Shown here: in pieces, positions 1-37,764 of the stretch
Layout of the letters: each line of letters begins with the position of its first letter
Numbering within the stretch: position 1 is the first letter of the stretch
Origin: a virus
DNA length: 40,045 nt
Direction: 5' to 3' (one strand)
IMG/VR virus record: IMGVR_UViG_3300032288_004525
Coordinates: 1 to 40,045 of that record
Made by a program: the position numbers and the translations under genes
The notes under the pieces: generated by a model
The model's input: only the letters and a program-made list of their open reading frames with translations
What the model was told of the DNA's origin: nothing
Database searches by the model: none

Positions 1-780
1 GTCTGTTTTGCGACCTTTACCAGGAGTAGGATCGCGAGCACCATAGATACCGTAACCGGTAAACTGACCTGTTTTCTTATCTCTGTCGTGGCTGAGTGTT
101 GGATTAAATCCACTTTCTTGCTTTACCTGACCGGCCAATGCAGCAACAGCATATGCAAGATTCTCTGGTGATACACCTTTCTTGCGAAGTTCATCTGCAA
201 ACGCTTGCATGATATTCTCTTTGTTGTTTTTTCCATAAACAGATGATTTTCTTGCTGCTTCAATATCACTTTGATTCACATCAACATCAAGACGACCAAA
301 AGATTGTATATCACCTTTATCATTTTTGATCACTTTGATACCAGATTTTGTCAAGTCATCATCATTTATCTTCTTCAAAAATTCTACACGAGGATCATCA
401 GCAGGTATATCACCCTTTTGTAATAGATCAAGAGTTCCCCTCTGCTCAGATGACAATTGAGATTTTGCACCAACATCAGAACGATTTTTACCAATACCTA
501 AAGATTCTTTGGTTTTTGCACTCAATTCAGGCTTATCACCTTCTTGAGGTCTCTGTGAAGAACCTGTGATGACGCTTTTCAGCTTTTCACCTGTTGGATC
601 GTCTCTATCATAATTATAAGGAAATGCAGATTGCAATTGTTGCGCTGTCAGTCTACTCAAAAGAGATCGACCCTCAGTTGTATCTACAAGCTCCAACCTT
701 TTAGTTGGAGCAAGGTTCATAATTTTATGATAATCAACTGTCAGATTTTGAAATCTACTATCTTGTGCTTTTGCTACCAT
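1..780 (-). CDS. Tail protein with lysozyme-like domain (partial; C-terminus beyond window)
   Basis: A leftward reading frame starts with ATG at 780 and stays open to base 1, giving the first 260 residues. The N-terminal ~80 residues have a motif (LTAQQLQSAFPYNYDRD) of a kind I associate with phage hub or tail-lysin proteins, but from memory only. Residues ~80-190 are polar. From ~190 the sequence resembles the phage tail lysozyme family (PF18013-like): a helix, then QVKQESGFNP, whose Glu fits the catalytic acid of muramidases, then a GYGIYG segment. It lies one base downstream of the small ORF that follows gp26, the place where phages usually encode the tape measure, so it may be a tape-measure or hub protein carrying a peptidoglycan-cutting domain. 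The missing C-terminus prevents a choice between tape measure and separate tail lysin. Confidence 0.75.
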   Translation of the reverse strand, partial: MVAKAQDSRFQNLTVDYHKIMNLAPTKRLELVDTTEGRSLLSRLTAQQLQSAFPYNYDRDDPTGEKLKSVITGSSQRPQEGDKPELSAKTKESLGIGKNRSDVGAKSQLSSEQRGTLDLLQKGDIPADDPRVEFLKKINDDDLTKSGIKVIKNDKGDIQSFGRLDVDVNQSDIEAARKSSVYGKNNKENIMQAFADELRKKGVSPENLAYAVAALAGQVKQESGFNPTLSHDRDKKTGQFTGYGIYGARDPTPGKGRKTD

Positions 781-978
781 TTATCTTCTTCTTGCTAGGG
801 CCGCCCTGTCGCGGTTCTGTTGTTCTAAACTCTTCAAATGATCTTGAAGCATATCGATATAGACTGCGCGTTCCCAAGGCATCATGTTTTCCAGTTCATT
901 CAGACTGTACTTGTGGTGCTGCATCATAGCAAAGTTGGTCTTGAAATAGTTCTTTAGCGTATCATAGCTAAACATCAT
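781..978 (-). CDS. Small gp51-position / tail-assembly-chaperone-like protein
   Basis: A 65-residue protein (starting MMFSYDTLK) beginning at an ATG that overlaps the gp26 stop as ATGA (978-975). A GTG at 1029 would extend it within gp26, but the ATGA junction is more natural. It is helical and charged, ends in an Arg-rich tail (ALARRR), and has an NMMPWER-like motif. In T4, gp51 follows gp26; in lambda-like phages the T part of the G/GT chaperone pair sits here, before the tape measure. The same frame can be reached from gp26 by a -1 shift on a seven-T run, giving a gp26-extension fusion of about 307 residues. Direct homology to T4 gp51 (249 aa in T4) cannot be shown here. Confidence 0.7.
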   Translation of the reverse strand: MMFSYDTLKNYFKTNFAMMQHHKYSLNELENMMPWERAVYIDMLQDHLKSLEQQNRDRAALARRR

Positions 979-1703
979 TGAAAAAAAGCTGAGAAATCTC
1001 GGTACTCCTTCCTGTGCAGCGTCTTGCACTTAGGGCAGGTATTCTCGATATCAACCACAAAATATGGGAAATTATCGACAAACATCTCCAGCCTTCTGAA
1101 TTGGAACTCAGATAGTTCCTCAACAAACTCCATCAATTCTTTCTTACTCAAATCTTTTGTTGTATATATCTCATCACCCTTCACAATCATATCAATGCAA
1201 TTGGCAATGACTTTGATCTTGCGGTCGATCACCGCTTCACCAACCTCCATCTGTTTCATCAGAGCATAGGTGGGATATTTCATCTTCATAGATAAACCAT
1301 TACCCAGTTCGATATTATTGCTGATTGATTCGTCTTTAGCAATTCTACATTTTGAAAGGTCAAGATTATCTTCATATACAAAACCACACCTATTATCATC
1401 AATGATAGCATTGCAGGTGAACTGTAGTTCTATCTTATCACCTATAGACAAACCTCTGAGAGCGATAAAAAGAAAATCAACGTCGAAGAATGGTAGCTTA
1501 TCAACCTCTACACCCTCGGTCAGAATACAGTTATTGAGTATCTGCTTGGTGACATTGATAACTTCATTTGTATCTTCTGCTTCGGCTGCCATCAACAAAA
1601 GTTTTTCTTCTCTGACCTTGAATGGTCTGACCTGAATTTCTTTTTGTGTTGAAGGTATTCTCAGATCATAGATAGGTAATTCTATCTTTGGTAACCAAGT
1701 CAT
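975..1703 (-). CDS. 26: Baseplate/tail assembly protein, gp26 family
   Basis: A 242-residue protein with the features of the T4 gp26 baseplate family (PF12322-like): N-terminal MTWLPKIELP, then a helical core beginning REEKLLLMAAE, and ALRGLSIGD in the middle. The C-terminal part carries a CPKC motif, and FTCNAII...CGF earlier in the protein could supply further metal ligands. T4 gp26 is a baseplate hub assembly protein. Its position directly before a short overlapping ORF and a large tail gene resembles lambda gpG. The start ATG at 1703 has a purine-rich AAAGGA-type ribosome site upstream. Its last codons (GCT TTT TTT CAA TGA) contain a candidate slippery site. Confidence 0.85.
   Translation of the reverse strand: MTWLPKIELPIYDLRIPSTQKEIQVRPFKVREEKLLLMAAEAEDTNEVINVTKQILNNCILTEGVEVDKLPFFDVDFLFIALRGLSIGDKIELQFTCNAIIDDNRCGFVYEDNLDLSKCRIAKDESISNNIELGNGLSMKMKYPTYALMKQMEVGEAVIDRKIKVIANCIDMIVKGDEIYTTKDLSKKELMEFVEELSEFQFRRLEMFVDNFPYFVVDIENTCPKCKTLHRKEYRDFSAFFQ
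981..987 (-). promoter_or_regulatory. Candidate -1 ribosomal slippery heptamer at the 3' end of gp26
   Basis: On the minus strand a run of seven T (987 to 981) is read in the gp26 frame as the last T of GCT, then TTT TTT, so it fits X XXY YYZ with all U. Slipping back one base turns CAA TGA into TCA ATG ATG and joins gp26 to the following 65-residue ORF. Only three bases separate the run from the gp26 stop. Position and geometry match the G/GT frameshift of long-tailed phages. No downstream stimulatory structure was assessed. Confidence 0.6.
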
Positions 1704-22848: not shown

Positions 22849-23187
22849 ATGGCAGCCTATGTAGAACTTTATATGGATCAAGGCGCAACATTCGAGAACA
22901 CCCTGACAATAACAGATGATGTGACGAATGCTACTGTCAATATCTCAGGTTACTCATTCTCTAGCCAGATGCGTAGATCCTATTACTCATCAAATGCTAC
23001 AGCAAATATAGTCTGCACAATCACGGACGCAAGTAATGGTGTGGTTGTAATGTCAGTCACAGCAGCAAATACCTCCAATATAAAAGCTGGCAGATATCTA
23101 TTTGACGTAGAATCAATCAATACAATAAACAATACTAGCAGAATCTTAGAAGGCATCATCACAGTAACACCGGGAGTCACACGCTGA
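22849..23187 (+). CDS. Small beta-sandwich-like virion protein
   Basis: A 112-residue protein starting MAAYVELYMDQGATF, followed by alternating strands (ISGYSFSSQMRRSY; NGVVVMSVTAANTS; AGRYLFDVESINT) and ending in a VTPGV segment. The pattern resembles small beta-sandwich proteins (BppU N-domain-like) next to phage fibres; I do not recognise a named family. It lies one base after the S74 fibre stop and overlaps the next gene as TGATG, so the two are probably co-translated. A role as fibre adaptor is inferred from position. Confidence 0.65.
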   Translation: MAAYVELYMDQGATFENTLTITDDVTNATVNISGYSFSSQMRRSYYSSNATANIVCTITDASNGVVVMSVTAANTSNIKAGRYLFDVESINTINNTSRILEGIITVTPGVTR

Positions 23188-23426
23188 TGGGTGATATGAA
23201 AGTAAGAATTTCTGTGAATAGCCAAAACAGAGTTTCTATAAATAACCAGAACAGAGAAAACATAAGAACGGTGGGTGTTGGTCCTGTTACTGGTGCTACT
23301 CGATTGTCTCAATTGACAGATGTCAACGTCTCGAATGTGCAGAACAACCATTCTCTAATTTACGATTCTACCACCGAAAAATTTGTATCTAAAGAAATAC
23401 CCGTAGTAAACGGAGGAAATTTTTAA
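23187..23426 (+). CDS. Small protein of unknown function in fibre cluster
   Basis: A 79-residue protein (starting MGDMKVRISVNSQNRVSINN). The N-terminal part has two short repeats of the V-x-I-x-x-x-x-Q-N-R form. The C-terminus (LSQLTDVNVSNVQNNHSLIYD) resembles the linker that ends with a strand just before fibre modules (LxDVxxxxxxNxxxLxYD), common in phage fibre proteins. It may be a short fibre or connector. It shares a stop/start overlap with the previous gene and abuts the next one. Confidence 0.6.
   Translation: MGDMKVRISVNSQNRVSINNQNRENIRTVGVGPVTGATRLSQLTDVNVSNVQNNHSLIYDSTTEKFVSKEIPVVNGGNF
23237..23244 (+). promoter_or_regulatory. Possible late promoter match TATAAATA inside a small gene
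   Basis: A perfect TATAAATA lies in the 79-aa gene, 183 bases upstream of the next fibre gene. Being intragenic, it is only a candidate. Confidence 0.3.
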
Positions 23427-25112: not shown

Positions 25113-26122
25113 TGGCTAATACAGTAATCGCACTCAAGAAATCTAGTACACCCTCTGCAACACCGGCTAGCCTTGCTTACGGTGAGCTGGCTATCAACTA
25201 TGCTGATGGTAAGCTATTTTATAAAGCTGCGAACGGTAGTATTCTCGAAATTTCCGGTTCTGGTGGTGGAGGTGGTGGAGGTTCATCAAACAGTTTCAGC
25301 ACCATCAATGTAAACGGAACACTTGTTGTTTCTGATTCACCAACCAATATTCTAACACTCGTACCTAGTGGTGATATCACTCTTACGGGTGATGCTGTCA
25401 ATGATAAAATAACAATTGGTATGAGTTCTTCTACTAATGTTGTTCCTGCTTTTGATCAGGCTAACTCAGCACAGACAATTGCCATTGCAGCTTTCACAAC
25501 AGCAAACGCAGCAGTCAATGTTGCAACTTTAGATGGTGCCAACACTGCCGTAGGTGCAGGCGCAAATAACTACCTATTATCTGTTATTGCAGGTGCCAAC
25601 ACTACCGTTGGTGCTGGTGCGAATAGCTATTCTTTAGCTACCCTTGCAGGTGCCAACACTGCCGTAGGTGCAGGAGCGAATAGTTACCTCTTGTCCGTTA
25701 TTGCAGGTGCTAATACAGCCGTTGGTGCTGGTGCAAATGCTTATGCAACTGCTGTAGGAACTGAGGCCAATGTCATCGCGATTGCAGCATTTACAGCAGC
25801 CAACGCAGCCGGCGGAGCTGGTGTGGCAGCTGCATTCGACCAAGCTAATACAGCACAAACAATCGCCATTGCTGCTTTTACACAGGCTAATACTGGTGGT
25901 GGAGGTGGTAGTTCACTCAATACAGCAAATATTATAGTATTTTCAAACACAAGAATATCAACAAACGCAAATAGCGGTGCTGTTATAATTGCCGGTGGTC
26001 TGGGTGTAAGCGGTAACATATACACCGCAAATAGGATTGGTTATTCGAACACCACCAACGTGAGTGTTGTATATACATATTATAACACAATAACATCATC
26101 TTTGGATACGGTATTTGGATAA
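25112..26122 (+). CDS. Tail fibre protein with Mtd-type N-terminus and 19-residue tandem repeats
   Basis: A 336-residue protein. The N-terminus (MANTVIALKKSSTPSATPAS; LAYGELAINYADGKLFYK) is the same fibre-attachment type as in the 23427 gene. A Gly run and a beta region follow. Residues ~141-216 consist of four 19-residue repeats (AGANTAVGAGANSYLLSVI type), flanked by IAIAAFTTANA and AFDQANTAQTIAIAAF repeats. The C-terminal ~60 residues (AVIIAGGLGVSGNIYTANRI) resemble the module before fibre tips. The gene is joined to the following adhesin by TAATG, suggesting that they act together. Confidence 0.78.
   Translation: MANTVIALKKSSTPSATPASLAYGELAINYADGKLFYKAANGSILEISGSGGGGGGGSSNSFSTINVNGTLVVSDSPTNILTLVPSGDITLTGDAVNDKITIGMSSSTNVVPAFDQANSAQTIAIAAFTTANAAVNVATLDGANTAVGAGANNYLLSVIAGANTTVGAGANSYSLATLAGANTAVGAGANSYLLSVIAGANTAVGAGANAYATAVGTEANVIAIAAFTAANAAGGAGVAAAFDQANTAQTIAIAAFTQANTGGGGGSSLNTANIIVFSNTRISTNANSGAVIIAGGLGVSGNIYTANRIGYSNTTNVSVVYTYYNTITSSLDTVFG
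25532..25759 (+). repeat. Four tandem 57-bp repeats in fibre gene
   Basis: Units start at 25532, 25589, 25646 and 25703. Each encodes 19 residues of the GANTAVGAGAN type. Units 1 and 3, and units 2 and 4, are most alike in codon choice, which suggests duplication of a two-unit block. Confidence 0.8.
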
Positions 26123-29100
26123 TGGCGCAAGTTAATAGAACGCTCACATATCAAGGTGATATGCTCGTTCACGATACACATGATGATATCAGCATGGCTG
26201 ATGGTGCTTACAGTTGGCAGTTTGATGGTACTACTCAAGCCGTACATATCCCACATAATACTGTATTGAACTTTTCCAATGGTGATTGGACTATTGAATT
26301 TTGGATGTGCCCAGCAGCAACAGACGTTTTGTCAGGAACTGGTCGTGGAATATATTCCAAAAGAGCAACAAGCGCAATTTTCGCAAGCGTTGCTATTGAT
26401 TATAACGCTACAGTAAATACCATAAGAATAGCTGTTGCAAATGCTGCCGGTAGTGCATGGACAGTAAATACTACAATGACTCTAGATATTGGTGTTTGGC
26501 AACACATAGCATTTGTTCGCAATGGTGCTAACATATACGGATATAAGAATGGTGTTCGTTCCACACTAAGCACCGCAATGGCTTCAGCAGTAATTTTTGA
26601 TGATGGTGCTGCTGCCACTATAGGTCAAATTGCTGTTATTCCTATTTCTACCACTACGAGCTATGGTGCTGCTCGTTTCAAAGGTCTATTATCAAATCTT
26701 AGGGTTACGAAAGGTGTTGCGCTATACACAGCAACAACTATTCCTATACCAAAATCACCACTAGTCAATCAAGGTTCAGTAACAAGCTTATTGACTTGTC
26801 AATCAGCAACATTCAGAGATAACTCTTCATATGCACACATACTAACTGATGTCAACACACCGACAATATCATACAAAAATCCATTCACAACTGAAAAGAG
26901 TTTGAAGTTTGATGGCACTTCAGAATATATAACAACTCCTTCTAATGCGGTATTTGCATTTGGTACTGGCGCATTCACTGTTGAATTTTGGATTAAGTAC
27001 ACTGTACTACCAACAACTGGTAACGCAAGAATGGTTCCTCTTGATCACGCGGGTGTCTCTGGTGGTTTTGGAATGTTTTTATCATCTGGTGGTATAGATA
27101 TATACATTACTGCTGGTGCGGGCCTTGGAAATTTTCCATATACATGGTCTCTTGATACCTGGTATCATGTTGCTGTGGTAAGAAGCGGAACAACTTGTAC
27201 AGCATATGTCAATGGTATTGCGATTGGTACAAATACGGTTTCTACAAATTTCACTTCTCCAGGAACAGTGTTTATAGGTAGAAATGCGTTCAATGCGCTA
27301 CAATTTTTAGCTGGATATATGTCTAATTATCGTATCACAAAGGGTACTGCTGTTTATACAAGCAACTTTATACCACCTGAACCATTCACAGATTCTGACG
27401 CAAAAGGTGCATCGATACTTTTATTCACTTCTGGTGCTACACTCAGAGACCTTTCTTCAAATGGTTTAGCAATAACTGCTACTGGTGGTCCCACTGTTTC
27501 TTATGAAAACCCGTTTGATACGACATTGACGGATGAATCTTCTATACCTTTTGCAAACAGATTGACTAATAGTGTTTACTTCAGCTCATCAGCCAGTAGC
27601 TATTTGTCAGTCGGAACTCCAACAGCAATGACTGGTGTATTTACTATTGAGTACTGGTTGTATTTGCATAGTCTTACTGATGCTACTAACGGTCACGGAA
27701 TATTTTTCCAAGGTACAACAAGCTCGAACGCAAACCGAGTTCAAATGAGCGCTCTTCCATCACCAAACCGACTAGGTTTTTTCTGGGAAAATGCTTCAGC
27801 ATTAAATATGAATCTCCTTTCGTCAGCGGGATCGATAACAACGAAAACTTGGTTACATGTTGCAGTAGTTTCTAATGGATCAGGATCTACAGTGAAAGTA
27901 TATGTCAATGGCGTGGAGTCAGGTAGTACATCATATGTGAATGCCCCATCACCAGCAACAAATCTATATCTTGGTCTTCATCGATCTGGTGGTGTGTTGC
28001 GACAACAATTTGATGGGCAAATCTCAAATTTTAGATATACAAGAGCTGTTGTTTATTCAGGAAACTTTACACCACCAACAGCACCACTTCAGATAACACA
28101 ATCTGCTGGAACAAACATTGCTGCCATTACAGACAAAACATCTGTGCGTTTATTGACTTGTCAAAATTATGGAGAATTTGTTGATAATTCAATCTATGAA
28201 CAACCTATTTTAGCGTTTCCTACAACATTGACAACAACAATTAGAAACACACCAGTAACGTCAAAATTCAATCCTTTCAATTCAACGAATCAAACGTCTG
28301 CGTTGACTAACAACTATTATAGTGCATTCTTCAATGGCACATCACAGTTCTTAGCAACAAATGCTCCAGGATTTACATCATCAAATTTCACAATTGAATG
28401 TTGGTTTTATCTGACAAGTAATTTGACTTTCTTATCTCCAGATAATGCATATACTGCTACTATAGTAGGAAGTAACGTGAACACTGGCATGATTCTTTAT
28501 GTAGGTGCCCCAGCAGGAGCAGGTTCGACACCAACTGCTATAGTTTTGACTGGTCTAGGAGCAGGCCATACAGGGCCTGTAGCTTCTGTTACCGGTATGA
28601 CAATTCCAATCAAAACTTGGCATCATGTGGCTGTCAGCAGAAGTGGTTCAACCTTTGCTATGTGGTTCAATGGTGTCAAGCAAACATTTACAACCTTGAC
28701 GAATACAGGTAACGCATTTGCGGCTGGTACTCTAGCTATTGGATACAATGCAGAAAATGCAAGCTATCGCTACTGGTTCCCAGGATACATCTCCAACCTT
28801 AGAATCGTATTGGATAATCCCGTATATGATCCTACAGGTGGTGATATTACTGTTCCAACAGCACCACTCGTAGTTACCAATAGAACATATCTACTTGCAT
28901 GTCAATCATCATTGCATGTCGATAACACAACTACACCATTCACGATGACAGCAACTGGTGCTACAACAGACAAGTTCAATCCATTTAGAACACAATCTGA
29001 TTATTCTGTATCTCTCAATGGTAGTAGTCAGTACCTAACATTACCAATGTCAACGAATTTCGTTTTCAATGGCGACTTCACTATTGAAGCTTGGATAAAT

Positions 29101-31827
29101 CCTACAATTTTACCGGCATTAGGTGATCAATACTGGATCATTGGTAACTGGGCCCGTTCATTTTATTTGAATGTTGTGAATACATCAGGTGCAATTTATT
29201 TAGGTTTTGCTTTCAGTTCTGATGGTACATTAGGCACAGTTCAATCTGTAATTAAACCAGCAAATATTATAACTAACACATGGCAACATGTTGCTGCTGT
29301 TCGCGTTGGTACCACTGTCACATTATATCTTGACGGTGCATCTATTGGATTTGGAACCATATCAATTACCAATTTCAACTCAGGTACAATTGCTATCGGT
29401 CAAATCACTCCTGGTCCAGTGGCTGGTTACTATTTCCCAGGATATATTTCTAATCTTCGTGTTGTCAAAGGAACTGCTGTCTATACAGATAACTTCATAC
29501 CATCATCATCACCTTTGACTGCTATTGCAAACACATCATTGTTGACTTGTACTTCATCACAAATACGAGATTATTCTGGCAATAGTATTACCATAACAAA
29601 CAATGGTACTGCAACGGTTTCTTCTACAGTGTTTCCACCGTTTACGACTACATCGGCAACAAGTCAAGTAGAATTTCCTGCGTCTAAATTACTATCGACT
29701 GGTTCGTTGTTGACGAAAAGCTATCTAGACGATAGTTCAATATTCAATAGAACATATGCAACATATTTCAATGGTATCAATCAGTACCTAACTGGGCCAG
29801 CTAGTGTAGCATTTGCTTTTGTAAGTGGAGATTTTACTTTTGAATGTTGGATATGGACCGATCCATTCACTAATACAAATGGTCGGGCTATTTATAGTGC
29901 TAAACCAGATTTCAATTTTAGTTTAGATAATACAGGTAGAGCATCGTTCACAACATCGTCGCCCCCTGGTGGTTCTACTATAACTGGTACTACCAATGTT
30001 GCTACAAGTTCTTGGAATCATATAGCAGTTACTCGTCAAAATGGAACGATAAGACTATTCGTGAATGGTGTGTCAGACGCAACACCAATAATAGACTATG
30101 ATTTTGTTGGATCTAAAAGTCTGGGTGGTCGCATTGGTTTTGATATATATGGTGTAGTTGGTGGATTTGCTGGCGATACTCTTTGGAATGGATATATTTC
30201 AAATCTTCGTTTTATTAAAGGTACAGCACTATATACGACAACATTCACGCCGTCGCTTACACCACTAACTAATTACAATGAATTTATATATGAAACATCT
30301 TTATTAGCTTTTCAAGATAGTTCTGCAACTATAGATAACTCGTCATATGCACACGCTTTGACAGCAGTCAATGGACCACTAACGACAACGAATATTCCTA
30401 CACGATTCTATAGTGGATCGTTCAATGGAAGCAGCACATCTTTACAGGTAACCACAACAGCAGTTACGGGTGCATGGACTATTGAGTTTTGGGTTTATAA
30501 CGCCAGTTTTGGTGGAGCAGGCGGCAAAGGATATGTATTCAACGGCACTACAAGCTCAGATGCAGATAGAGTGCAGATAGGTGTTGATAGCACTGGGCAA
30601 TTTTATTACTATCACGAAAACTCATCATCAGGAACTTTTACTGTCAACTCTGGCGCAACACTACTATCTCTGAACAAATGGCATCACGTTGCTGTTGTTT
30701 CTGATGGAACTACTCTAACATTATTCATTGATGGTGTATCTGTTGGTTCAGGAACAATCGCAAACAGCCCTTCACCAGGCACCAACTTTTATATTGGATT
30801 CCTAAGAAATTCTGGAGCATTGCAATATCATCAGGGTTATATTTCAGATTTTAGATATGCAGGAGCATCGGTGTACACAGCAAGCTTCACGCCACCAACA
30901 CAAAAATTGACAGCGATTGGTGGTACATTTTTGCTTGCGCTACAAACCGCAAATGTTACTAAAGATAACTCTACCAATAATCTAACGATAACAAACAACG
31001 GTTCTGTCACAGCAGTAGCACCTATCTCATGGCCTACTGTGCAAAAGCAATATTCGACAGGTGTGATTGAGATTGTTGGTCATCTTGATGATTTCAATCC
31101 CGTTCAGAATGGTAATGTGAGTGCATATTTTATTGGTGATGGATATTATTTGAGTACACCTTCAAATGCATCTTTCAGTTTTGGCACTGATGATTTTACT
31201 CTTGAGGCTTGGGTATATCCTATTAACGGTGGACGAGCAGCAGATGCACTTAAATATGGAACTATAATATCTCAGTTTTTAGCCGGTAGCACTGGTGCCG
31301 GTTCAAATTCTTGGGGTCTAGGTATAGGTATGAATGGTGGAGTATTTTCTAGTGTAACATTTGAAGCCGATGGAGGATCTAGACTGGATATTACTGGTTT
31401 AACATTTGCTCTCAACACATGGCATCATCTTGCCGTTGTTCGTAGCAGTGGAACATTAACAGCTTATGTTAATGGTACATCGATAGGTAGTTCATCTTAT
31501 GCATCTTCTATAAACAATAATTCTTCTGGATCTGTTCAAATGGGAAGAAGTGCTTTTGCCGGTTCATATAGTAACTGGCTAAACGGATATCTATCAAATG
31601 TTCGTGTCACAAAAGGTGTCGCTGTTTATACTGGCAACTTCACAACACCAACATCACCGCTACAGATAACTCAATCTGCAAGTGCGAATATTGCAGCAAT
31701 TACTTCAACATCGTCTGTATCGTTGTTGACATGTCAAAACAGTGATCTTTCTGATATATCAACAAATCGGTTTTCAATATTCAACAATGGTGGTGTAACA
31801 TTCAACAATGAAATAATACCGTTCTAA
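26122..31827 (+). CDS. Giant multi-LamG adhesin (eight concanavalin A-like modules)
   Basis: A 1901-residue protein made of eight LamG/concanavalin A-like modules (LamG_3 type), starting near residues 30, 258, 483, 732, 960, 1212, 1430 and 1666. Each has an opening strand with an FDG/FNG-like motif, a FTIEFW-type strand, a WHHVAVVR-type strand, and ends with G-Y-I-S-N-L-R-x-x-K and a YTxxFxPPxxPL segment. Such domains bind carbohydrates, so it probably contributes to host recognition. The modules are divergent copies, which implies repeated internal duplication. The N-terminal ~25 residues are not LamG and may attach it to the preceding fibre. No transmembrane segment is seen. Confidence 0.85.
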   Translation: MAQVNRTLTYQGDMLVHDTHDDISMADGAYSWQFDGTTQAVHIPHNTVLNFSNGDWTIEFWMCPAATDVLSGTGRGIYSKRATSAIFASVAIDYNATVNTIRIAVANAAGSAWTVNTTMTLDIGVWQHIAFVRNGANIYGYKNGVRSTLSTAMASAVIFDDGAAATIGQIAVIPISTTTSYGAARFKGLLSNLRVTKGVALYTATTIPIPKSPLVNQGSVTSLLTCQSATFRDNSSYAHILTDVNTPTISYKNPFTTEKSLKFDGTSEYITTPSNAVFAFGTGAFTVEFWIKYTVLPTTGNARMVPLDHAGVSGGFGMFLSSGGIDIYITAGAGLGNFPYTWSLDTWYHVAVVRSGTTCTAYVNGIAIGTNTVSTNFTSPGTVFIGRNAFNALQFLAGYMSNYRITKGTAVYTSNFIPPEPFTDSDAKGASILLFTSGATLRDLSSNGLAITATGGPTVSYENPFDTTLTDESSIPFANRLTNSVYFSSSASSYLSVGTPTAMTGVFTIEYWLYLHSLTDATNGHGIFFQGTTSSNANRVQMSALPSPNRLGFFWENASALNMNLLSSAGSITTKTWLHVAVVSNGSGSTVKVYVNGVESGSTSYVNAPSPATNLYLGLHRSGGVLRQQFDGQISNFRYTRAVVYSGNFTPPTAPLQITQSAGTNIAAITDKTSVRLLTCQNYGEFVDNSIYEQPILAFPTTLTTTIRNTPVTSKFNPFNSTNQTSALTNNYYSAFFNGTSQFLATNAPGFTSSNFTIECWFYLTSNLTFLSPDNAYTATIVGSNVNTGMILYVGAPAGAGSTPTAIVLTGLGAGHTGPVASVTGMTIPIKTWHHVAVSRSGSTFAMWFNGVKQTFTTLTNTGNAFAAGTLAIGYNAENASYRYWFPGYISNLRIVLDNPVYDPTGGDITVPTAPLVVTNRTYLLACQSSLHVDNTTTPFTMTATGATTDKFNPFRTQSDYSVSLNGSSQYLTLPMSTNFVFNGDFTIEAWINPTILPALGDQYWIIGNWARSFYLNVVNTSGAIYLGFAFSSDGTLGTVQSVIKPANIITNTWQHVAAVRVGTTVTLYLDGASIGFGTISITNFNSGTIAIGQITPGPVAGYYFPGYISNLRVVKGTAVYTDNFIPSSSPLTAIANTSLLTCTSSQIRDYSGNSITITNNGTATVSSTVFPPFTTTSATSQVEFPASKLLSTGSLLTKSYLDDSSIFNRTYATYFNGINQYLTGPASVAFAFVSGDFTFECWIWTDPFTNTNGRAIYSAKPDFNFSLDNTGRASFTTSSPPGGSTITGTTNVATSSWNHIAVTRQNGTIRLFVNGVSDATPIIDYDFVGSKSLGGRIGFDIYGVVGGFAGDTLWNGYISNLRFIKGTALYTTTFTPSLTPLTNYNEFIYETSLLAFQDSSATIDNSSYAHALTAVNGPLTTTNIPTRFYSGSFNGSSTSLQVTTTAVTGAWTIEFWVYNASFGGAGGKGYVFNGTTSSDADRVQIGVDSTGQFYYYHENSSSGTFTVNSGATLLSLNKWHHVAVVSDGTTLTLFIDGVSVGSGTIANSPSPGTNFYIGFLRNSGALQYHQGYISDFRYAGASVYTASFTPPTQKLTAIGGTFLLALQTANVTKDNSTNNLTITNNGSVTAVAPISWPTVQKQYSTGVIEIVGHLDDFNPVQNGNVSAYFIGDGYYLSTPSNASFSFGTDDFTLEAWVYPINGGRAADALKYGTIISQFLAGSTGAGSNSWGLGIGMNGGVFSSVTFEADGGSRLDITGLTFALNTWHHLAVVRSSGTLTAYVNGTSIGSSSYASSINNNSSGSVQMGRSAFAGSYSNWLNGYLSNVRVTKGVAVYTGNFTTPTSPLQITQSASANIAAITSTSSVSLLTCQNSDLSDISTNRFSIFNNGGVTFNNEIIPF

Positions 31828-32959: not shown

Positions 32960-34198
32960 ATGGCAAATTTTATAACTTCGAGTGGTGAAGAATTAGCATC
33001 AACCTTTATGAATGATTCTTCACTAATTGATAGGTTTATTGGTAATCAGATATGGACTTGGGGAGATAACACCTACGGACAATTAGGTGATAATAGCAAA
33101 AGTTATGCCACGGCAAAATCTTCACCAGTACAAGTTAGTGGTAATCAAACAAATTGGATCAAATTACCTGATAGCATAAGCGCAAGTGCAACTCATATAG
33201 GTGCAATTAGATATGTTACTACAGGAAGTAATTTATGGTTGTGGGGTAATAACAATAGTAATCAAATAAACGTAACAGCCTATAGTGGCTTAACTTTATC
33301 TTATCCGTTACAAATTAAAGATATCGATACAGAAAACCCTCCAGATTTTTTATCTATAACTGATGTCTCACCATTTCAAACTACTGTACGCAGTAATACT
33401 GCATTTAGAACTTTTGCAAAAGGTTCAGGTGAATTTTTAGGAAATGGTTCTACAGCTGGTAGTAAAGCAAATAGCTTGCTACCTTTCTTTAATTCTGGAG
33501 GTGCTAATATATTGAAAGAGGTCTCTATTGGTCTCGATGGTGGTGTTGCTATACAAGCCAATACGGGAATTTTATTTTCAATAGGTTCAGCTAATATTGC
33601 TCCTAATGGTACTACAGGTTATTGGAGGCCAGCTCAACAGGTTGTTCCTACTGGTTATCCTTGGTCAACAGTATCTGCCGGAGATTATCATGTAGCTGGA
33701 ATTACTACAGATGGTAGATTATGGAGTTGGGGAAGAAATAATTATGGTCAGTTAGGTAATACAACAATTACAGTTGGAAGCACAGTAAATACATATACAC
33801 AATTACAAGGTTCTAGTAACAATTGGTCTAAGGTTTCTGCCGGTAGCGATCATACAGCAGCAATCAAAACCGATGGTTCTTTGTGGTTGTGGGGTAGAAA
33901 TGATTATGGACAGCTAGGTGATGGTACTGTAATACATAGGTCTTCTCCAGTGCAGATAATTGCAGGTGGTAAAAATTGGAAACAAGTATCTTCTGGTTAT
34001 AGACATACAGCAGCAATCAAAACCGATGGTTCTTTGTGGTGTTGGGGTAAAAATGATAGAGGTGAATTAGGTGATGGCACCATAATACATAGGTCTTCAC
34101 CTGTACAAACAGTTTTAGCTGGTAAAAATTGGAAACAAGTTGCTGCCGCCAAAGAATTTACTGCTGCAATAACCTACTACGAATCATTCTTAACATAA
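32960..34198 (+). CDS. RCC1-type seven-bladed propeller protein 1
   Basis: A 412-residue protein with seven RCC1-like repeats of the form LWxWGxNxxGQLGDGTxxHRSSPVQ. The clearest are the first (IWTWGDNTYGQLGD) and the last three (LWSWGRNNYGQLGN, LWLWGRNDYGQLGD, LWCWGKNDRGELGD); the middle ones are degenerate. The N-terminal ~30 residues (ANFITSSGEELASTF; SLIDRFI) form a short attachment-like segment shared in style with the other two RCC1 genes. RCC1 propellers are typical binding platforms and are uncommon in phages; here they fit a receptor-binding or virion decoration role. This copy is followed by a DUF4376-like assembly factor. Confidence 0.83.
   Translation: MANFITSSGEELASTFMNDSSLIDRFIGNQIWTWGDNTYGQLGDNSKSYATAKSSPVQVSGNQTNWIKLPDSISASATHIGAIRYVTTGSNLWLWGNNNSNQINVTAYSGLTLSYPLQIKDIDTENPPDFLSITDVSPFQTTVRSNTAFRTFAKGSGEFLGNGSTAGSKANSLLPFFNSGGANILKEVSIGLDGGVAIQANTGILFSIGSANIAPNGTTGYWRPAQQVVPTGYPWSTVSAGDYHVAGITTDGRLWSWGRNNYGQLGNTTITVGSTVNTYTQLQGSSNNWSKVSAGSDHTAAIKTDGSLWLWGRNDYGQLGDGTVIHRSSPVQIIAGGKNWKQVSSGYRHTAAIKTDGSLWCWGKNDRGELGDGTIIHRSSPVQTVLAGKNWKQVAAAKEFTAAITYYESFLT
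33851..34040 (+). repeat. Direct repeats in RCC1 gene 1
   Basis: Bases 33851-33887 and 34004-34040 carry the same 37-bp sequence encoding HTAAIKTDGSLW in the last two blades of propeller 1, about one blade apart. Closely similar stretches recur in propeller 2, so the DNA is suited to recombination between blades and genes. Confidence 0.75.
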
Positions 34199-34207
34199 GA
34201 GGAAAAA

Positions 34208-34843
34208 ATGTTTGTAATCATACAGAATAGCTCATTGATCTTTGGTCCAAAAAATTGGAGCAAATTGATTTTTGAAGAAATTATAAAAGAAGATTGCAAT
34301 CTAGAATGTAATATCAGTGTACAAAACGATGAGAATCTTCCAGTCGTTTTAGACAATGATGTAAAGATTCTTCCTGTCGTTTCGATAAATCAACCCTCAT
34401 ATAATTCGAAAATTGAAAGATTGGAGGGTCCTTATTGGAATTTCTATGAAGATAGAGCTGAAATGTATTATACTGTTGGTGATCTACCTATAGATGCTGT
34501 AAAAAACAGACTCAAGAATATCATATCTTCCAATAGATATGAGTATGAAAAGATAGGTTTTGATATGAAAATACAAAATGCTGATATCTATATCAATACT
34601 GGAAGAACTGAGAGGTCTGTCTTTTTACAGACACTATTTTACATGGAAGACAATGAAACCATAAACTGGAAATTTTCAGAAGGTTGGATGCAACTCACAA
34701 AACCAGATATGCAGCAGATTGTTTCTAAGATCAAAACACATGTTCAGTCATGTTTTATATGGGAACAAAACAAGATCGCTGAAGTTGATGCTGCAAATAC
34801 ACTTGAAGAACTTGATGCAATCAATACTGAGGTTGAGATATAA
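34208..34843 (+). CDS. DUF4376-like tail fibre assembly protein
   Basis: A 211-residue protein. The N-terminal half has a beta domain with a GPYWNFYEDRAEMYYTVG segment. The C-terminal ~110 residues match the DUF4376 pattern found in tail fibre assembly proteins and fibre ends: RYEYEKIGFDMKIQNADIY, then a Thr-rich turn, NWKFSEGWMQLTK, and a helix ending with the AANTLEELDAINTEVE repeat. Its place directly after the first RCC1 propeller and overlapping the second (TAATG) suggests it folds or attaches those adhesins. An AGAGGA ribosome site precedes the ATG. Confidence 0.7.
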   Translation: MFVIIQNSSLIFGPKNWSKLIFEEIIKEDCNLECNISVQNDENLPVVLDNDVKILPVVSINQPSYNSKIERLEGPYWNFYEDRAEMYYTVGDLPIDAVKNRLKNIISSNRYEYEKIGFDMKIQNADIYINTGRTERSVFLQTLFYMEDNETINWKFSEGWMQLTKPDMQQIVSKIKTHVQSCFIWEQNKIAEVDAANTLEELDAINTEVEI

Positions 34844-36066
34844 TGCCTTATACTGGTGCAAATAATAACTTCAGAATAAGAGGTTCCGACATAGGTGCGG
34901 GCCCTTATGGTTTAATACCACTAGAATTTTTCATAGACGCTTATCCTAATATTTTTCCAAACTTCAAAAAATCTAACTTATGGTTGATGGGTGATAATCA
35001 ATACGGTCAACTAGGTGATGGTACTGTAATACATAGATCATCACCAGTTCAATTATCAACAAGTGTAGCAAACAATTGGAATAAGATTAGTGCTGGAGAT
35101 AATTTTAATGTTTCTATAAATAGCAACACCGAGACAACACTATTCAATAGTCAAGGTTTTTCTTGGGGCAATAATAACTATGGTCAATTGGGTGACAATA
35201 CCATGGTCAATAAATCTTCTCCCGTTCTTTTTCAATCTTCTACTGATGTTTCTTGTGGATGGAATCACATATCTACTATTACAAACAATGGTGATTATCG
35301 TTATCTATGGACATGGGGAAGAAATGATTACGGACAACTAGGTGATGGTACCACAATACATAGATCATCACCAGTTCAAGTCGCAGGCAATTTTATTTGG
35401 TCCCAAGTATCTTGTCGCGCATGGAATACAGCAGCAACTAAAATAGACGGTACATTGTGGACATGGGGAAGAAATGATTACGGACAACTAGGTGATGGTA
35501 CCACAATACACAAGTCTTCACCCGTCCAAACAGTCGGTGCTGGTACTACATGGAAAATAGTTTCCTGTGGTGTAAATCATATGGCGGCAATCAAAACCGA
35601 TGGTACTCTTTGGAGTTGGGGTGTTAATGATCAAGGTCAATTAGGTGATGGTACAAGAATACATAGATCATCACCAGTTCAAGTAGGTGTTGACACTACA
35701 TGGAGAACTCTTTCTTGCGGTACTAATTATACAGCAGCAATCAAAACTGATGGTACATTATGGTCTTGGGGTTATAACGATTTAGGTCAATTAGGAGATG
35801 AAACTCAAACACACAGGTCTTCACCTGTTCAAACTATAGCAGCAGGTACAAAGTGGAAGTATGTGTCATGTAGCAATCATACAGCAGCAATCAAAACTGA
35901 TGGTACATTATGGTTGTGGGGTTATAATAATCTAGGTCAACTTGGTACGAATGATATCGAACATAGGTCTTCACCTGTTCAAACTGTATCACCAACTACA
36001 AATTGGATGAGAGTTGCTGCCGGTAATACACACACCATCATGATTCGTGAAAGTAATTTTTTCTAG
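34843..36066 (+). CDS. RCC1-type seven-bladed propeller protein 2
   Basis: A 407-residue protein with seven well-kept RCC1 repeats, the most regular of the three copies: LWLMGDNQYGQLGDG, FSWGNNNYGQLGDN, LWTWGRNDYGQLGDG twice, LWSWGVNDQGQLGDG, LWSWGYNDLGQLGDE and LWLWGYNNLGQLGTN, each followed by HRSSPVQ or close to it and by a TAAIKTDG strand. The N-terminal ~40 residues (NNNFRIRGSDIGAG) are a different attachment-like segment. Two blades share a 53-nt identical stretch, pointing to recent duplication or gene conversion. It would form a closed seven-bladed propeller. Confidence 0.87.
   Translation: MPYTGANNNFRIRGSDIGAGPYGLIPLEFFIDAYPNIFPNFKKSNLWLMGDNQYGQLGDGTVIHRSSPVQLSTSVANNWNKISAGDNFNVSINSNTETTLFNSQGFSWGNNNYGQLGDNTMVNKSSPVLFQSSTDVSCGWNHISTITNNGDYRYLWTWGRNDYGQLGDGTTIHRSSPVQVAGNFIWSQVSCRAWNTAATKIDGTLWTWGRNDYGQLGDGTTIHKSSPVQTVGAGTTWKIVSCGVNHMAAIKTDGTLWSWGVNDQGQLGDGTRIHRSSPVQVGVDTTWRTLSCGTNYTAAIKTDGTLWSWGYNDLGQLGDETQTHRSSPVQTIAAGTKWKYVSCSNHTAAIKTDGTLWLWGYNNLGQLGTNDIEHRSSPVQTVSPTTNWMRVAAGNTHTIMIRESNFF
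35308..35510 (+). repeat. Pair of 53-bp identical direct repeats in RCC1 gene 2
   Basis: Bases 35308-35360 and 35458-35510 are identical and 150 bp apart, one blade unit. They encode the WTWGRNDYGQLGDGTTIH part of adjacent blades. Such identity in an otherwise diverging repeat family indicates recent duplication or conversion. Confidence 0.85.
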
Positions 36067-36103: not shown

Positions 36104-36577
36104 ATGGCAATTGATGGGTTTTTTACTACAAAAGATGCACATAATACATGTTCTATTGTTATGGATCTTTCTTATGAAAAAACAACATTCGGTGAGAAAA
36201 TATCAAATTTCAATATGATACCGGAGAATGCTAATGAAATGTTTTCTAACATACTAAATACAAAGATTGAGGTTGATGAGCCGAGTTCTGGTGTATTTTT
36301 CAAACCAGTCTCTTGGATTCACTTTGAAAATTTCGAAAGTAGTAATGAATGGTTGTTTTTTTGTGCGTTGTCCGAAACAACACTGAATATCTTTGAGCAT
36401 CAATCCGGCGCTACGACTGCGTTAGACGGTTACGAGTTCAATTATAGAAATTTATTTGAATGGGATTTACAACTCAATTTTATGTTGAAACCGGGTCAAG
36501 GTGTACTTTTTAGACCATGGTTATTTCATAGTTTCAATGGAGGCCTAATTCAAATGTTTAAACTGAGAGAAGTATAA
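36104..36577 (+). CDS. Putative double-stranded beta-helix (2OG-oxygenase-like) protein
   Basis: A 157-residue protein from ATG at 36104; a GTG at 36047 would add 19 residues and overlap the RCC1 stop. No clear ribosome site exists for either. The C-terminal half looks like a jelly-roll: a WIHFENF strand, WLFFCALSETTLNIFEHQSG, and the closing LKPGQGVLFRPWLFHSF, which resembles the distal His region of small 2OG-Fe(II) oxygenases or cupins. A full metal triad (HxD...H) is not evident, so enzyme function is only possible. It ends with TAATG at the third RCC1 gene, and may modify or attach propellers. Confidence 0.6.
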   Translation: MAIDGFFTTKDAHNTCSIVMDLSYEKTTFGEKISNFNMIPENANEMFSNILNTKIEVDEPSSGVFFKPVSWIHFENFESSNEWLFFCALSETTLNIFEHQSGATTALDGYEFNYRNLFEWDLQLNFMLKPGQGVLFRPWLFHSFNGGLIQMFKLREV

Positions 36578-37764
36578 TGGCAGCAACAAACTTTCAAGTT
36601 AATGGTATTGATTTTGATGATGCCTACGTCAGAAAAGATGTTTTTACTAATATGAGTTCGCTATGGACTTGGGGAAATGGTGCTTCGGGACAATTGGCCA
36701 ATGGTGGTTCTGGTACTGGTAATCATAGGTCTTTACCAGGTCAGATAACGGCAGATGCTAATACTTGGAAAAAATGTTTTAGTTTAGCAAGTGGATCGAG
36801 ATTTGCTATAGCAAATAATGGCACATTATGGTGTTGGGGTTATAATGCTAATTATGTTTTGGGTAATGGTACCAATACAAATGTATTAACTCCAATAAAA
36901 CTAAATGCCGGAAACAATTGGATGCAGGTTACATCAATAGGTGGTTTAACTGCTGCACTGAAGAATGACGGAACTGCATGGTGGTGGGGTAATTATGCCA
37001 ATAGATCAACACCCTCTCAATACGGTGTTGATACAGATTGGATTCATATTGATGGAGGTTATGCACTTAAGTCTAATGGTTCATTATATGAAATGAGATT
37101 GAATGTCGTTAACATTTTAAATGTAACCGCTAATACGTTACCCTTAAATTTTGGAACCAATAACAAATATATCAGCGGCACCATTAACTATGGTGGCGCG
37201 ATCATCAAAACTGATGGTACACTATGGACTTTTGGAAACAACAACTACGGTGAATTAGGAGATAATACTTTTGGTCTACATAGATCATCACCAGTTCAAG
37301 TATATGGTGGTGGTACATGGAAAGATGTATCTTATCGTAGAATCGGAACTTCTGGTGCAGTAGTCGGAGCAATCACAGCTAACGGTATGTTACATATGTG
37401 GGGCCATAATACAAATGGTAATTTAGGAATTGGATCAAATTCTCATAGATCAATACCGACAGTATTATATGTAACAACTTCTAATCCTAATAGCTGGATG
37501 AAAGTTAGTGCACCTAATTCAGCTCAAACTATAGCAGCATATCCTATTGGTAATAGAGAAGTTTTAGAACCTACGGTCGCCCTTTCTTCTGATGGTACCG
37601 CTTGGTCTTGGGGTATGGGTACATCCGGTCAATTAGGTGATAATAATACTGCGCAGCCCGGTACTACACATAGATCATTTCCTGGACAAATACGCACTGG
37701 TCAAGTATGGATAGATATATCAAGTTGTATGGGAATAACTAAATTTGATTTCGAATCTACATAA
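36577..37764 (+). CDS. RCC1-type seven-bladed propeller protein 3
   Basis: A 395-residue protein with seven RCC1-like repeats, more diverged than in copy 2: LWTWGNGASGQLANG, LWCWGYNANYVLGNG, AWWWGNYANRS, a degenerate LYEMRLN repeat, LWTFGNNNYGELGDN, LHMWGHNTNGNLG and AWSWGMGTSGQLGDN, with HRSSPVQ or related ends. The N-terminal ~25 residues (NFQVNGIDFDDAYVRKDV) again differ from the other two, fitting the idea of different attachment tags on a shared propeller. It starts by TAATG overlap with the preceding gene. Confidence 0.83.
   Translation: MAATNFQVNGIDFDDAYVRKDVFTNMSSLWTWGNGASGQLANGGSGTGNHRSLPGQITADANTWKKCFSLASGSRFAIANNGTLWCWGYNANYVLGNGTNTNVLTPIKLNAGNNWMQVTSIGGLTAALKNDGTAWWWGNYANRSTPSQYGVDTDWIHIDGGYALKSNGSLYEMRLNVVNILNVTANTLPLNFGTNNKYISGTINYGGAIIKTDGTLWTFGNNNYGELGDNTFGLHRSSPVQVYGGGTWKDVSYRRIGTSGAVVGAITANGMLHMWGHNTNGNLGIGSNSHRSIPTVLYVTTSNPNSWMKVSAPNSAQTIAAYPIGNREVLEPTVALSSDGTAWSWGMGTSGQLGDNNTAQPGTTHRSFPGQIRTGQVWIDISSCMGITKFDFEST

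Follow-up and report, generated by a model that had tools for sequence, protein, structure and literature searches.

The window analyzed here is a 40,045-nucleotide stretch (positions 1 to 40,045) of the IMG/VR virus record IMGVR_UViG_3300032288_004525. On its minus strand lies an open reading frame (ORF) for a gp26-like protein of 242 residues (975-1703), which we assigned, like the gp51 part described below, by profile matches to Pfam and PHROG families. The protein matches PF12322 with 174.8 bits against a cut-off of 24.5 (E=2.6e-51, profile positions 3-218 of 219) and phrog_150 with E=2.9e-55, a full-length match to the gp26 family above its cut-off, and we propose it as the short tail assembly chaperone (TAC-N). 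The gene ends in TCA GCT TTT TTT CAA TGA, with the TGA at 977-975. As a preliminary description of this DNA had stated, a run of seven Ts occupies exactly positions 981-987; it forms a phased slippery heptamer, T_TTT_TTT, that starts three codons before the stop and is separated from it by the single codon CAA. No stop interrupts the -1 frame between a point 52 nt upstream of the gp26 stop and a TAA at 783-781. A -1 slip on the T run would join 241 residues of gp26 to a 66-residue extension (SMMFSY..., 781-981) in a fusion of 307 residues, in agreement with the length of about 307 and the absence of an intervening stop given earlier. The ATGA overlap reported at this junction is also present (975-978, with the ATG at 978-976 on the TGA) and makes coupled re-initiation of the short ORF possible; if separately started, a free gp51 ORF would span 781-978 and encode 65 residues.

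The preliminary description recognized the next ORF as a short -1 extension but did not identify its family. The short ORF belongs to the gp51 family, as it matches phrog_634 ("baseplate hub assembly catalyst") over residues 1-60 with E=6.7e-26, and it also matches positions 236-281 of phrog_150, the part equivalent to the C-terminus of T4 gp51. We refer to it as the gp51-like C-terminal part of a proposed TAC-NC. The gene that follows (1-780, minus strand, at least 260 residues) runs off the edge of the window and is a candidate tape-measure protein with a tail-lysozyme-like region, its PF18013 match falling below the cut-off. A homologue on the 140-kb contig of locus L016 is 715 residues long, contains the PF18013 tail lysozyme and matches the tape-measure family phrog_9570; it is the last gene before a strand switch, after which the genes lie on the other strand. 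In S-PM2 (L006, 2380-3705), the long gene after gp51, annotated only as hypothetical, has an ADP-ribosyltransferase-like region (PF01129, PF03496). The window resembles the lambda gpG/gpGT locus in having a short chaperone ORF with a slippery site close to the 3' end, then a -1 extension, all just upstream of a long gene. Unlike lambda, in which the slippery sequence is GGGAAAG, the window has T_TTT_TTT; the likeness to lambda is one of arrangement. The gene after gp51 occupies the place of the lambda tape measure and is a candidate for that protein.

In-frame heptamers of the A6/T6 type occur 11 times in the main ORFs of the window, and two of the 11 lie within five codons of a stop. The other near-stop case, TTTTTTC at approximately 36057-36063, is located two codons before the stop of a plus-strand gene at 34843-36066; the ORF that follows starts at 36047 and is in the +1 rather than the -1 frame, which gives no indication of a -1 frameshift into that ORF. 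That gene and its plus-strand neighbors at 32960-34198 and 36577-37764, in the tail-fibre region, match PHROGs annotated as "regulator of chromosome condensation" (RCC1-like repeats). Also on the plus strand, 26122-31827 encodes a 1901-residue protein whose matches to baseplate wedge and virion structural PHROGs fall in as many as eight stretches per family, so that it appears repetitive. The plus-strand tail and fibre genes are interrupted by a single minus-strand ORF of 122 residues (22983-23351), which has no PHROG match.

Comparison of the junction across T4-like relatives, which had been proposed as a check, bore out the arrangement seen in the window. From IMG/VR contigs and isolate phages, we collected 153 distinct non-T4 loci with both gp26 and gp51 parts, 108 of which share less than 80% identity with one another across the final 240 nt of gp26 (ungapped). 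The gp51 part lies in the -1 frame of gp26, with no stop between them, at all 153 loci, and a phased T_TTT_TTY heptamer is found 2-4 codons before the gp26 stop at 151. Every member of the window's own clade (L001, L002 and L014-L019) keeps T_TTT_TTT, and most relatives have six Ts followed by a C. One of the two exceptions, L010 from Vibrio phage D533, reads TCA CTT TTC AAG TAATG at the junction. In the other, L122, an apparent internal deletion at approximately 1485-1510 removes the C-terminal part of gp26 together with the slippery site and leaves gp51 intact; this appears to be a genuine mutant or an assembly artefact and not a clean natural loss of the signal. Three loci that had seemed to be without gp51 (L020, L058 and L073) were rejected as such, as their contigs end right after gp26. 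We found no gp51-like sequence in the +1 frame past the gp26 stop in the 10 relatives checked, and that frame is short in 9 of them. Outside T4 itself, nearly all of the T4-like relatives examined have the slippery arrangement. Because near-stop heptamers are rare in the window's ORFs and the arrangement recurs so widely, the relation of gp26 and gp51 in the window lies far beyond chance.

The T run encodes two phenylalanines, and their codons could be compared with those of other Phe-Phe pairs in the same genes. The C-terminal Phe-Phe of gp26 is encoded by a slippery sequence in 151 of 151 cases, compared to 4 of 155 for Phe-Phe elsewhere in these genes; among representatives below 80% identity, the corresponding counts are 106/106 and 3/111. 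Additionally, the residue before the C-terminal Phe-Phe varies (S, A, N, D, R or G), and its codon always ends in T. This slippery coding and the constant final T of the preceding codon argue that selection at the 3' end of gp26 acts on the nucleic acid, beyond the protein alone.

T4 itself arranges the same two families differently. Its gp51 matches phrog_150 from 13 to 280, almost the whole profile, and its C-terminal part matches phrog_634; the match of T4 gp26 to phrog_150 stops at 235. Since T4 gp51 covers nearly all of phrog_150, the long form exists there as a single polypeptide, and we read it as a gp26-like domain with a gp51 tail in a separate gene, gp26 corresponding to the short form. 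T4 genes 26 and 51 are thus related, separate and on opposite strands, whereas the window has one gene with a -1 frame extension; we did not find a T4-type stand-alone long gene with its own gp26 domain in the window, which represents part of the genome. The T run is absent from the end of T4 gene 26, which reads GAG TTC TTT GAG.

The full frameshift arrangement also occurs in Ochrobactrum phage OC, Acidovorax phage ACP17, Vibrio phage D491s and Stenotrophomonas phage YB07. It is likewise present in Aeromonas phage P19, which like T4 belongs to the Straboviridae and in which the translated gp51 part has no Met near its start. The Vibrio and Serratia phages D533, BX-1, K475, 207E48.1 and 3M (those with a classification are Ackermannviridae) retain the -1 relation but lack the full heptamer, having shorter, YTT TTY-like sites instead; such relatives count against the frameshift reading, and in Serratia phage 3M we found no Met near the gp51 start. 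In our survey the Vibrio and Serratia phage loci with gp51 in the -1 frame and YTT TTY-like sites are L010, L180, L181, L183 and L184. The distribution suggests that frameshifting is old in the T4-like group and that the two-gene solution of T4 replaced it. Because phage P19 retains the frameshift arrangement, with no ATG at the gp51 start, such a replacement would have been late and within the Straboviridae. We regard it as an evenly balanced question whether frameshifting was the ancestral route to the gp26/gp51 pair and the separate T4 genes arose by late duplication and fusion within that family.

Many relatives carry further signals around the heptamer. The -1 signal of bacterial dnaX consists of a Shine-Dalgarno (SD)-like element, a heptamer and a downstream hairpin, and cyanophage relatives similarly combine an upstream SD-like element (GGAGGG), T_TTT_TTC and, often, a downstream hairpin. 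Among the relatives, mostly cyanophage-like, the Glu codon at position -5 from the heptamer is GAG in 111 cases and GAA in 25, compared to 943 and 2329 elsewhere in gp26, and it is this use of GAG for GAA that places GGAGGG approximately 10 nt upstream of the heptamer in cyanophages. Consistent with this, the calculated pairing energy with the 16S anti-SD in these mostly cyanophage-like relatives is strongest at approximately 10 nt upstream (mean about -7.5 kcal/mol). A stem approximately 5 nt after the heptamer has at least 8 of its 11 pairs in 78 of 146 sequences, compared to at most 12 in shifted registers, and its pairing exceeds that of arm-swapped controls (z about 8, in a control that leaves relatedness in place); S-PM2 has a different downstream stem that is equally strong.

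This tripartite signal occurs in many cyanophage relatives, and the window does not have it in that form. The window's SD-like element, AGGAAGGAG (1005-1013, minus strand), lies 17 nt upstream of the heptamer, further than the approximately 10 nt conserved in cyanophages. Its duplex with the anti-SD amounts to -8.3 kcal/mol and is best at a spacer of 15 nt between the 9-mer and the heptamer, and the element is possibly a weak frameshift stimulator. A search for stable RNA downstream of the window's heptamer revealed nothing unusual (z -0.29). Both the distant element and the ordinary downstream RNA count against frameshifting in the window.

Start codons at the junction bear on the other way in which gp51 could be made. 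An ATG lies close to the junction in 128 of the surveyed relatives, at positions -1, +2, +5 or +14 relative to the stop; many of the window's close relatives have TAATG, and in many cyanophages an ATG lies 5 nt beyond the beginning of the gp26 stop codon. The window's ATGA likewise offers a second route to free gp51, which counts against frameshifting there. In 18 of the 153 relatives, however, there is no ATG, GTG or TTG near the gp51 start. These include Synechococcus phage S-T4, pelagiphage HTVC008M and Methylophilales phage Melnitz, in which the deposited gp51 or hypothetical coding sequence begins within the conserved domain. Even within the window's clade, L017 has only a TTG and the ATG of L018 is located elsewhere, and both keep T_TTT_TTT.

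Re-initiation may add free gp51 in some phages. That both routes operate, with frameshifting giving the fusion and re-initiation some free gp51, would supplement the best explanation and not compete with it. The window's ATGA and the frequency of an ATG among the relatives speak for such a combination, but the ATG is neither universal nor fixed in position, and the cyanophage SD-like element is spaced for stimulating a slip and not for starting at the ATG; on balance, we consider it somewhat unlikely. A stricter version holds that gp51 is made solely as a separate protein of approximately 65 residues by termination and re-initiation at the ATGA, the slippery run being incidental. An ATGA or TAATG overlap by itself forces a -1 relation, the cyanophage ATG would fit the same scheme, and Vibrio phages such as D533 have TAATG without the full heptamer. 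This leaves the slippery coding of the C-terminal Phe-Phe unexplained, and it is also at odds with the relatives that lack a standard start codon and with the retention of T_TTT_TTT in L017 and L018. Because the position of the ATG is not fixed and start codons are missing from those 18 relatives, re-initiation, judged from these sequences, cannot be the general route to gp51 unless rare start codons are invoked, and we hold re-initiation on its own to be very improbable.

The -1 change could also come from RNA polymerase, rather than the ribosome, slipping on the T run. The window does have seven Ts, but the six Ts and a C of most relatives are a short run for transcriptional slippage, and the SD-like element and downstream stem of cyanophages are of the kinds that act on ribosomes; we regard this origin as extremely improbable. 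Finally, a sequencing or assembly indel, or gene decay, that split a single gp26-gp51 gene can be dismissed as next to impossible, since, for all that T runs are error-prone and T4 gp51 is a single fused polypeptide, the identical split recurs at the identical place in 153 distinct loci, finished phage genomes among them.

To compare the window's gp26 with known chaperones, we predicted its structure from 54 sequences using AlphaFold2, folding gp26 alone. The model is confident (pLDDT 90.2, pTM 0.79). Foldseek places the HK97 tail assembly chaperone 2ob9 first among PDB structures (E 0.47, probability 0.85). After realignment, the top three PDB matches are 3fgx, 2ob9 and 3klu (YqbN, which we take to be a chaperone of the tail assembly kind), with Z scores of 7.5-7.6 over residues 1-96; the fourth match has Z 4.9 and the fifth 2.5. 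The leading scores are below the tool's own comfort level, and such middling values count against the frameshift reading. The structural comparison suggested in the preliminary description thus places two tail chaperones among the top three matches, and the identity of these matches agrees with the chaperone reading of the modeled protein.

Frameshifting in tail chaperones is classical, having been described for lambda gpG/gpGT and as conserved in dsDNA phages (Xu, Hendrix and Duda 2004; PMC5009743). According to papers that cite it (PMC12846349, PMC10274946), the study of Vladimirov, Gautam and Davidson (2022, Virology 566:9-15) identified the chaperone genes of T4-like phages, which, from our comparison with T4, would be genes 26 and 51. 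PMC12846349 credits that study with poly-T -1 signals in the chaperone genes of T4-like phages, and PRFect (PMC10274946) refers to it for a short gene and a fused long gene that some T4-like phages use in place of a frameshift. The locus of phage Adele (Vandenendeviridae, Andersonviridae; PMC12846349) is a chaperone locus of other phage families than the window's. The preliminary description had suggested a hidden, undescribed tail chaperone pair: the biology is supported by our survey and by the fold, but the suggestion that it was undescribed does not stand in light of the 2022 study, as represented by its citing papers. A frameshifted T4-like chaperone pair is, by these accounts, already known, and the window adds a new case. 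In the open literature searched, in which the 2022 study is represented second-hand, we found no described gp26/gp51 frameshift in cyanophages. What we add is a quantified survey, a codon control within the same genes, the absent start codons and the three-part cyanophage signal.

Sequence and comparison together establish the ORFs and the frames they occupy, the conservation of the slippery site, and that the two parts are homologues of gp26 and gp51. On this basis, the gp26-gp51 region of the window is very probably where a T4-like phage encodes its tail assembly chaperones, and this phage makes two versions of the chaperone from one stretch of RNA by -1 slippage. Most ribosomes would finish gp26 and release the 242-residue short chaperone, and a minority would shift back by one base on T_TTT_TTT, pass the TGA out of frame and continue for 66 more residues, yielding the long chaperone, a gp26-gp51 fusion of 307 residues. 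If lambda gpG/gpGT is a guide, the part common to both forms may coat the tape-measure protein, and the extra tail may recruit tail or hub parts. We infer the slippage in the window's phage, its rate and the ratio of its products, and their action as chaperones.

The arrangement matters for how these genomes are read. Current annotations of cyanophage and pelagiphage genomes show the downstream part as a separate "gp51", call it a truncated hypothetical protein, or omit it, and a joined gp26-gp51 feature would be the more accurate annotation. In some of these genomes, frameshifting is the sole evident way to make the conserved N-terminus of gp51.
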